NCBI GenBank assembly: GCA_903813345.2
Contig: CAIIXF020000008.1
Span: 15,484,822 to 15,548,821 of the forward strand
Reading direction: 5' to 3'
Length of the DNA: 64,000 nucleotides
Origin: Owenia fusiformis
Lineage: Eukaryota; Annelida; Polychaeta; Sabellida; Oweniidae
The notes beneath the pieces were generated by a model that did no database searches, was not told the origin of the DNA, and saw only the letters and a list, made by a program, of their open reading frames with translations. The first letter of the stretch is position 1. Every line of letters starts with the position of its first letter. This document shows, piece by piece, positions 88 through 32,600 of the stretch. A program made the position numbers and the translations under genes.

Positions 88-3000
88 CTGAATTATAAAA
101 TACATGTACAGAAATGGTTAAACAAGGCAATAACATGCAAAATGTCACCACCTGCTATTTGTTACAGATGCTGATTGCCAGACACCAACCGCCGAACACC
201 ATCCATAAAAAATTGGAAATTATAATAATATGTCACCGCTTGTGGTGGTGATATAAAAACCATGCTAATAATGTTTTCCTTACAATCTTATATCATTTTC
301 TCTAAATATGAATTCAGATATCTGATCAAATATGGAAGTTGTGTAAGATGTAAGATAAGTTATGTTCCCTTTTTAAGTTTTTGCCAGATAATTTTTTTAA
401 AAAAGAGGACTATTTCAAAGTCAGATCTGTTGGACTTTCCAAAGGCAGTAATGATGAAGGCAAAAATAATTGTAAATTGTGAAAAATATTACTGTCAACT
501 TGTCTCTAACCCTTCTTGTCCTTTAATTAACAAGCAATTTCTAAAATGACTACAGCATTTCCAAACCAGACATGCTTACCAGAATTTGTGGCTACTTTAT
601 CAACCTGTGTCCTGGGTCTGTAGACTGTTTCAACATCTTTGTAGTTGGATGAAAATATCCTGGAAAACATCCAAGTTATCTATTGGAGAACTTTTGTTTT
701 TTCATGTTTGAAAGTAATACTATTTAGTCATTATTCATTATTTGACATTAATGTTATATAAAAAAGTTACATTATTTGAACACCTGATTGGAGATTATCT
801 AATGAATAAAACCAAGTTTATCTGACAATGACTTCTCCAGGAGTTATTGCATAAAAATAACAGCAAAAATATAATATAGAAGTATAGTACAACCATTCTG
901 TATTAACTTACAATTTGTTGTTGTCAGATGTAGCAGCCTTTTCACTCTTACCCAGGTAAACCTTTGCTACAACCAGGACCCCTGTACAAACACATAGAAG
1001 TTCATATCAAGAACCATAAACGAATGTTAGGATACATATCACATATAGAGTATATATCGCAAAAGAAAGGGGATGAGATTGAGAGAAGGGTTGCTTATCA
1101 GTTTAATACATATTAGTATAATAATAATGGTTCAACTGCCTCACTGAAACATATTGAAGATTTGTATGACACAAGATCAAATCCCCCTTCTCTCTAAGTG
1201 GCCCATGGCAATCTGGTAACAGGGAAAATATTATAGAGCATGTTTTTATTCTTTTGCTCCAAAATAAGTCATTTCTATCTTAAAATTAATAGGTACTTTG
1301 CTTTATAGTTTATCTTCATTTTATATACACTGTACTAACCATGTCTATATGGACATGTATCTTGATATGGCTTGTTTTTAGCCTGTTTGGTGAGGTATTC
1401 TATCCTGTGCTGATCTGCTATGGTAAGACTGTTGGTCAAAGGTACAGCACCATCCTTCCCTAGTTGCTATAACAACAAAAGTACAAATTAGTGAAGGACA
1501 TAGGAGGTTTAATTCAACCAAATAATACAAACTATCAAACTATGTCAAGATTTGTTGAGTAATTTGGCATTTTGTGGATTTTAGATATGAATTGCATCTT
1601 AAAATAAAAAGTAACCCATAATAGATAAATGAGAATGTTGACAATAAGTCAAACACAAATAATAAACATTGCTGCCTTTAATTGATGTTGTATGAATATT
1701 CACCAAAAATGACAAGTGATATTAAAATATAACAGCTAAGTATACAGACAGTGGCACGTACTAAGAGTTGACACAAGCAATAAATAGGAATATATAATGC
1801 AGCTTTGTAATAATGCAGTTTTGTAATAAGCATGACTATCAGTGTGGAGATGTTCAAGAAATATCTAAAAATGTCCATGTTTATCACGAATACTATATGG
1901 GGGGCATGGCCAGGATCTAAAATAAAATGAGGCAAAAACTAATAAGCGAGGCAAATTTCAACTTAATGAAGTGAATTCTAATTTTGGACTTCATTTCCAA
2001 AGTTTTAAAAATATAAATTTCTGTTTGATTCTGTAGTTATACTATATGGGGGCATGGCCAGGATCTAAAATAAAATGAGGCAAAAACTAATAAGCGAGGC
2101 AAATTTTAACTTAATGAAGTGTTTTCTAATTTTGGACTTCATTTCCAAAGTTCTAAAAATATTTTCTGTTTGATTTTGTAGTTGCCTCAACTACACCTGG
2201 CTATACCCATGCCATTAAAGGGTATATCTGGAACAAACATTTGACAATGACTTCATTTTTGTATGAAATGACTTCATATGTTCATGTATTTCATTATCTT
2301 CATTGGTATACCTTGTAGGTGTCAGCATCCATGAAGCCCTCCTCCAATAGCCTGGCTGGTTCATTGAGGCCACCAGGCAACTCTGGGTCCCACTTCCAGA
2401 ACAAATACTCAAGCTTCTTCTTGTATGAATCACTTCTACAATGTGAACGATTGGCAACAAATAAACACAGGATTATGCCTCAGTCTCAGCTGTAGCTTCC
2501 CAAAATCGAGAGAAATATGCAGTATAAATATAGGGATAAGCAGTATGATGTAGATTTTCTATATTGATTTTGAAAAGTTATGGCTGCAGTATGGTTGCCG
2601 AAGAGTGAGATGGTACAAATGGTGATATGGCAAATGGGGATATGGCAAAAATTAAATTTAAACTGAATTCAATAAATCATCCACATTTTAGATAATTACA
2701 ATTTTGGTAGATTATGTTTACAGTACACTGGCATAAGATTATGTTTGCAAAATAGCAATAAATTTCGAAACATTTCAGATGCCTGGGATGTAGTTGATAA
2801 CTGGTTGTCACAACATTATCGGAACAAGATCAATAAGTTTGAAAGGCATCATGTTAAGGTGTGACCCTATAAGTTAAACACCTACCTAGTTGTTGGCAAG
2901 TAATTATCATCATCATCGAGTAAAGTTGAGAGTTTATCATCAAACTTGCTGCGTAGAATTCTATTATGTACACGTGTTATTCTATGTATCCTCACACCAT

Positions 3001-29600: not shown

Positions 29601-32600
29601 AGATATTAATTGCATTAATGAATGTAATTAATGTGACACTTAATTTTCCATAAATACAACAAACTCACCTAGGTTCACAATGTAGAACTTTGAAGTCAGG
29701 TCCTAAGCGAGTGACGAACATGTCATTGTCAATCAAAATTTCATTGACAGTTGGCGGTGGCAATGCTATGGCAAGGCCTACAAAGCCTAGTAGAGGGGGC
29801 GGAGCTTGTTTGCGTGTGAGTGAGAAAACCATCTGAGGTCGCATATGTCCCATGATATGAACAACCTGTAAATATGGAAAACTATTTTTAATCACAATAG
29901 CAACAAACAAACCATTGTCTGAATGACATCTTAAATTTACTAAGAAAGGAGGCTCATGTTTTTTATCATTGTATATCAAATATGTTTGAGACTAAAGCAG
30001 GAATTACTGGAAAAGATTCTGACAAAAACTAATTTTAGAAAACAATAAATTGACACAAATGCTTGCAAAGAAATATTTCTCAATTTATGTTCTAAATAGA
30101 TGTCACTCCCATGTGAACAATGTAAAAAGTCAGAGAAGAAATTATTCCAAATTGATGATGGCATGTGTATTTAAAGGGGTCGCCTCAAACTATAGTTATG
30201 TAAAGTAAAACCTGTGTATATTGAACATGTTTTTTTTGCCTATACTCAAGATTTCAATAAAAGGCTGACAGACCTACCCTATATCATACTTACCCTATAT
30301 CAGACTTACCCTATATCCTGAAGACTTGACATGTACTCCTCTCTTAGTAAGTGTAGACTTCATACGGACACAGAATGACCTGTCATCCCCACTGGCCAGG
30401 GATGGGTTCATAACCATCACTAAAACACAATCAAAATTTGCTTTAGTACATTTAAATGCTTGAGTCTTACTCCCTACATTTGTCATGACTTGTTTAATCA
30501 ACTGATATGAAATCAAATCATGGGAATGCAGTATGCCAAAAAGAGTATGTTGATTTGTCTTTCACTTAAATTTCTCAAAGTATTAACAATTGTTACATAT
30601 GAAATTGTTATGTACCCCTACCCTTAACAAAAGGATGTGTCCGGGTATATGCCCTTTTGGTCCCTCAGTCAAATGTATGTTAAATATGTTTTTTACTACT
30701 GTCCTAGTTATATTTACTTTTTCACGAGTTTTGATGCATAATTAACCCCCTGCTGAGAGTCAGAATAAGTATCTTAACAAAAACAAATAGTCATTATCAT
30801 AGAAAAAAAATATCAATGGCAACATGTATGACTTACAAAGAAGAAATAACTTAAGACCCATGAAGAATTTAAAAGAAAATCATATTTTTGAAATATATTT
30901 AAGGATTAAAATTTTTTTCAAATTTTTGAATTTCCCGCCAGTTTAATTTGAAGGGGGAAAAACAAGATGGCTGCCGTTTGATGTAAGAAATATCAGAAAA
31001 AAAGTTGCTTCACTTTTAGTTTTCACAATGAGCACAGTTTTCCGGTTTAGGTTTTTTGACTGATTCTGACTCTTCATCACCAGGGTCATGTATAGAGATT
31101 ATAAAATTGAAACCGGAATGTTGTGCTCAGCATGAATTTGACTGAAATATGTGTAACTTCACCAACACAATTGAAGTCTCAAAACTGGATGCTCAGTAAC
31201 TTTGAGTGACTATAATCCCTTGATTACCCAGATAAACACCAATTCACTTATCCAGAAATGCCATTCAATGTCTATACAAAGAAAGTAAGCAATGTTTTGG
31301 AGGATATGTTTCAAACCTTTTGCATAAATAATTCATTTAATATTTGCCATTGATTTTTTTTCAATTCTGACAAAGTGATATGCACTGTCTTTGATGCCAA
31401 TATTCTTCATTAATTGTGATACAAATTGATATTTTTGTACTCTCAGAAGAAGGATAAGATATTGAAGTTTAATAATATGTGCGATTGAGTTGGTTTTTCA
31501 GACATTACAATTTTCAATATTTTCTAAGTCGATACCCAGACTCATTCCCAGACTCATCCTTTACTGCATTCTTCTACAATTGTTGACAACTAGAAAAAAA
31601 CAGCAACTCCCAAAGTTGCAAATCCCACTGAACAAAAAATATCTCATCACTGATCAGTTTGAACATTAAATGAATATGTATGTATCTGAATCAAATCCGA
31701 TAATTGATAAACGAGATGTAAATTATCAAAAATATACATGTTTTCATGAAAAATGGTGGGCATTTTGAATTCAGTGGCAATTGTGAAAATATTTTCTTGA
31801 CCACAGGTCATAAAGCATCAGCATATAAAATAAAAATGTGAACCAAATCTGTCAACATGGTATTTGAGTTATCAAAGATTACCTTTTTCAAAAAACATGG
31901 CAGCCATTTTGAATTGAGTGACTATATTAAAAATTCCTCAATCCCTCCTGAATGTAGACAACATAAACAGCATAGGTAGCCAGGGGGGGGGTTGCGATGG
32001 GTGCACCCCCCTCCCCCCATCGTGAAAGAAAGGAAATAAAAGAGCTTTAAAATGCTTTTTATTTGAAGCTTCTGGCTCAATTTTGAAGGAAGCTGCATCA
32101 ATTTTTGTACAATAAGATAAATCTTATTTTTTGGCTTGTTTATGCCACAATCGAACCCCCTGACTGAAAACCGAACTTTCTTTGGTGATCACACCCTCCT
32201 GACTGAAAGCTGGCTACGCCCCTGAACAGTATTCTAATTCTGAACAGAATAGTTACCTCTATCATGTAAAGGTGGAGTTAGTGACCGGGGGCTTGTTAAT
32301 GGTGTACTAGTGTCCTCTGATGTCATAGAGCTAGGGGAGGGGGTGGTAGTACTTGGGTGAACCATGCCTAATTCTTCAGCAAACTCCTGTTGATCTGCAT
32401 GGTGAATATAGTCAAACATGCTACTACCTGTCATCTCAACCTGGAATACAATACAGCTATTATAAAGGAGAGGGGGGTAGATAGCACATGTTTTAGACAT
32501 GGCATTAACATCCAAAATGTCACCACCTGCCATTTGTAGACACCAAACTCCTAATGCAAACGCCAAGTGCCAGACAGAGCAAAAAGTTGGAGACCATAAC

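Follow-up and report, generated by a model that had tools for sequence, protein, structure and literature searches.

A stretch of 64,000 nucleotides from Owenia fusiformis (contig CAIIXF020000008.1, positions 15,484,822–15,548,821), analyzed here as a single sequence and termed the window, contains two genes in which sequence from exon ends recurs in the neighboring introns. Both genes lie on the minus strand and were rebuilt with 16 exons (LRRC9-like) and 10 coding exons (NPAS3-like), a total of 26 where a first-pass annotation of the window had counted about 27, with 49 testable junctions. The LRRC9-like model takes its exon 1 from the ATG, and its exon 16 is truncated where the window ends; a first exon with start codon was not found within the window for the NPAS3-like gene. 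When joined, the exons form open frames of 626 (LRRC9-like) and 868 (NPAS3-like) residues with no stop at any junction. Among solved structures, the predicted bHLH-PAS protein matches NPAS3 best (E 3.3e-141) and NPAS1 next best, and we refer to the gene as NPAS3-like on the basis of this similarity. The protein aligns with human NPAS3 without gaps over the exon 6/7, 7/8, and 9/10 joins. For the other gene, searches including Pfam give leucine-rich repeat domains alone; its name, which goes back to the first-pass annotation, is putative.

The first-pass annotation had described five junctions as copied in tandem: the LRRC9-like exon 10 and exon 11 acceptors, the NPAS3-like exon 6 and exon 9 donors, and the NPAS3-like exon 8 acceptor. 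At all five, the local exon-edge copy outscores 200 of 200 dinucleotide shuffles of the flank. The claim holds for three of them (Table 1), where arrays called by Tandem Repeats Finder (TRF) overlap coding sequence and truly multiply the splice site, while the exon-proximal site is intact; the exon 8 and exon 11 sites are weaker.

Table 1. Junction-associated repeats, related elements, and adjoining exons, with positions counted from the first nucleotide of the window.
Feature	Position	Strand	Details
LRRC9-like exon 10 acceptor array	11560..11815	-	56 bp, 4.6 copies, 12 exon nt inside, TRF score 316
NPAS3-like exon 6 donor array	30269..30317	-	16 bp, 3.1 copies, 8 exon nt inside, TRF score 84
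NPAS3-like exon 9 donor array, exon-proximal part	28082..28195	-	25 bp, 24 exon nt inside, TRF
NPAS3-like exon 9 donor array, distal part	27722..27871	-	same 25-bp unit, TRF; 2 of 4 units compared identical to exonic unit
MITE-like element (miniature inverted-repeat transposable element)	27878..28071	.	194 bp, 14-bp perfect inverted ends; splits exon 9 donor array
NPAS3-like exon 8 acceptor array	29077..29475	-	TRF 29096-29475; hand extension to 29077
Inverted-repeat element	13642..13817	.	ends match transposon-like part of exon 8 unit
LRRC9-like exon 11 copy	3087..3117	-	first 31 exon nt, one copy, lying 49 nt upstream
LRRC9-like exon 10	11440..11571	-	acceptor 11571/11572; open frame, phase agrees with exons 9 and 11
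LRRC9-like exon 11	2886..3068	-	open-frame reconstruction
NPAS3-like exon 6	30310..30419	-	donor 30310/30309; frame and human NPAS3 alignment
NPAS3-like exon 8	28986..29092	-	frame and human NPAS3 alignment
NPAS3-like exon 9	28172..28319	-	donor 28172/28171; frame and human NPAS3 alignment

Across the three clear arrays, AG/GT splice signals are kept in ten in-register copies. The exon 10 array places intronic acceptors at 11627, 11683, and 11739 with scores of 7.1, 7.2, and 9.3, compared with 8.8 for the authentic acceptor. Its exonic unit is 71–75% identical to the other units, which are 84–91% identical among themselves, as is usual when homogenization bypasses the edge of an array. Exon 6 terminates in GGATATAGG, and two extra copies of GATATAGG follow together with the donor at 16-base steps; the authentic donor scores 10.4 and the intronic donors at 30293 and 30277 score 10.4 and 8.7. 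The exonic 25-base unit of the exon 9 array encodes VINYVLS and recurs together with its donor, such that all five intronic donors (28146, 27815, 27783, 27756, and 27731) share the score of the authentic one (6.1). Of seven intronic units set against the exonic one, two match it exactly, despite lying 356 to 440 bases away. Because the exonic units of the NPAS3-like gene encode residues that align gap-free with human NPAS3, the exon is the likely source of the copies, as judged from the coding alignment.

At exon 8, repetition consists of 45- and 63-bp units in which exon-edge sequence is fused to a transposon-like end. The array called by TRF starts 4 nt outside the exon, and the overlap with coding sequence that had been claimed stands on a hand extension, in which 18 nt (16 exonic and 2 intronic) match with 2 mismatches and the nearest copy is offset by 27. 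This match scores 13.0 against a maximum of 11.5 in the 200 flank shuffles, a small margin. As acceptors, none of the exon 8 copies scores above 4, yet 4 of the 25 authentic acceptors do not reach this value either. Most of the unit's length aligns with the ends of the inverted-repeat element at 13.6 kb, an alignment that rests on the first ~20 bases; both this element and the transposon-like end of the unit are presumably mariner-like. A fixed-spacing pattern search for the transposon-like end matched the exon 8 array alone, missing the 13.6-kb element because the latter has another spacing. A transposon end has probably become part of the repeating unit.

The site at LRRC9-like exon 11 is of a different kind. 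In place of the acceptor array with a 49-base period that had been described, we found a single exon-only copy with one mismatch, which is absent from the TRF calls and scores 28.5 against a shuffle maximum of 10.0. It ends at the exon edge and has no AG there; what has been duplicated is therefore the start of the exon and not its splice site.

Several other features of the window are recorded here. An intronless PRISE-like reductase gene (6751–7836, minus strand; Pfam PRISE, E 6.6e-26) lies inside LRRC9-like intron 10. The last coding exon of the NPAS3-like gene (exon 11) contains a 27-bp in-frame tandem repeat in coding sequence (26533–26589, TRF), and one of its introns carries, far from exons, a 1-kb array of 25/50-bp units (50228–51250); the bHLH exon of this gene had no relative in a scan of prokaryotic genome contigs. 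TRF also reported two near-identical tandem duplications, at 16245–16650 (period 221 bp) and 57899–58290 (193 bp), with 94% matches each. An interspersed repeat is identical over 25 bases at 144–168 and 33931–33955, with a third copy at 39026 bearing 3 mismatches; the repeat had no match in viral contigs.

The multiplication of splice junctions by tandem repeats has already been described in amphioxus, where such repeats are called mirages, and the window adds loci to this known phenomenon. We favor, with a probability of about 0.62, the reading that the arrays are mirage-type minisatellites of ordinary birth that are tolerated since the exon-proximal site survives. A short tandem duplication would by chance span an exon end, and slippage or unequal exchange would then lengthen the array, with growth confined to the intron side, where it leaves the exon intact; arrays extending into the exon would be lost. 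The spliceosome would be expected to keep using the exon-proximal site, leaving the copies, which we infer to be unused, as near-neutral intron filler that decays or is homogenized. At exon 8, the repeating unit would additionally have taken in a transposon end.

An alternative is that arrays are seeded at junctions more often than elsewhere by a duplication process that favors exon ends and might act at splice-related R-loops or through AG/GT-rich microhomologies, in line with the striking density there that the first-pass annotation had perceived. We assessed this density in two ways, and all resulting P values are uncorrected, post hoc, and drawn from a single window whose unusual appearance had led to its selection. 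A position test with fixed windows over the 49 junctions, which detects three of the five sites, gave three passing junctions against 0.8–3.9 expected from intron positions (P 0.049 to 0.76, the lower value being the smallest at any setting); rotating the junctions along the genes yielded P values of 0.25 to 0.45, and at stricter cut-offs one or two junctions passed against 0.5 to 2.3 expected. An early version of this test (6/49 against 4.2–5.6 expected) was dropped since its matches ran through unrelated sequence, an extension that had spuriously passed the LRRC9-like exon 9 donor. For an array-based test, TRF arrays with a score of at least 50 and a period of at least 10 were kept and merged, leaving 23 in the window and 18 in gene bodies, or 17 once the split exon 9 array is joined and 16 without the wholly exonic array at 26533–26589. 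Most of the 17 lie away from exons, showing that the region is minisatellite-rich. The points that speak for a bias to exon ends, and hence against births by chance, come from this test under a null that limits exon cover to one period: three of 16 arrays fall on a junction against 0.66 expected (P 0.020), or four with the exon 8 edge extended by hand (P 0.0019), and with 17 arrays the values are 0.023 and 0.0025. When any exon cover short of a wholly exonic array is allowed, 1.90 are expected and P rises to 0.287 (three) and 0.099 (four), so the choice of null decides the outcome. A simpler count of exon distances, in which four of the 17 arrays touched an exon and 0.80 were expected to (P 0.005), was not relied on because the array at 26533–26589 lies wholly within exon 11, a placement that its null forbids. 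Each repeat is beyond chance and exon-edge copies do occur in introns, but their clustering at junctions is unproven, the position test shows no excess, and template switching at R-loops finds no support in this window. We consider a bias to exon ends unlikely.

Selection could instead keep the copies as decoy splice sites whose use leads to premature stops and transcript decay. The scores of the ten in-register copies in the three clear arrays lie in the authentic range, and each copy gives a premature stop when translated (10/10), a ground for taking the copies to be unused; five further GT sites in the arrays (scores of 3.1–5.9) fall outside this translated set. Read-through into intronic sequence, however, mostly ends at a stop codon, so premature stops are expected in any case and are no proof of a decoy role. 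Six of the seven translated exon 8 copies reach a stop, contrary to an impression, gained by eye, that in-frame use of these copies was likely; the nearest one (29119) adds nine residues in frame, at odds with a decoy function, as are the low acceptor scores at this exon and the lack of an acceptor in the exon 11 copy. Such selection, which the first-pass annotation had also raised, is unsupported in this window and appears improbable. It is more improbable still that assembly errors produced some or all of the arrays. Exon 8 units are up to 98–100% alike, such that their copy number could be wrong, and a globin mirage is reported to have been misassembled in the amphioxus draft (PMC3087553, supplementary legend). 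On the other hand, exon 10 units that are 71–91% alike and an exon 9 array interrupted by another element would both be unlike assembly slips. We retain chance births, followed by growth toward the intron, as the preferred account of the arrays.

This account places the window beside the amphioxus genes. Mirages are described for Adh3, the globins BflGb6 and BflGb9, TnC, and PGBD5 (PMC3087553, PMC3902484), with PGBD5 added and TnC named in PMC3902484 and the original description credited to Canestro and others 2002 (via PMC3087553). Their units measure 10–160 bp and occur at donors as well as acceptors, and reverse transcription PCR (RT-PCR) reportedly shows regular splicing (PMC3087553). A repeat unit spanning the exon boundary is likewise present at three of our five sites (exon 10 acceptor, exon 6 and exon 9 donors). 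Amphioxus mirages keep AG/GT in many units, and so do the three clear arrays, whereas exon 8 copies do not exceed the cut-off and the exon 11 copy lacks the signal. Length polymorphism or somatic instability is a further trait of the amphioxus mirages; the window arrays come from a single DNA sequence. The G+C content of the window is 33.7% (0.43–0.44 at third positions), and that of Branchiostoma is higher. Within the open-licence literature searched, mirage as a term for such repeats appeared in the amphioxus papers alone (PMC3087553, PMC3902484), and nothing related was found on duplicated splice junctions in invertebrates. The window may extend mirages beyond cephalochordates, a possibility to which its low G+C content points without proving it. 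It also differs from the amphioxus cases in that one unit, at exon 8, contains a transposon-like end; this fused unit is the most unusual detail and is not mentioned in the accessible parts of PMC3087553 and PMC3902484.

A second comparison is with intron gain and sliding through tandem duplication of exons, reported for near intron pairs in Drosophila and internal tandem repeats in human (PMC2891723, PMC2812944). Common to these cases and to the window is tandemly duplicated exon-edge sequence with splice signals. Unlike them, the three NPAS3-like junctions display no new intron position, as judged by the coding alignment alone, in which the gap-free match to human NPAS3 at all three joins means that no coding sequence has been inserted. 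A broader proposal, that in some other animal genomes duplication is biased to exon ends and transposons at splice sites are captured as repeat units, yielding spare splice sites from which introns could shift or originate, strikes us as doubtful at present. If arrays such as these prove common outside amphioxus, they would amount to a lasting reservoir of duplicated splice sites and thereby a testable route to intron shift and gain.
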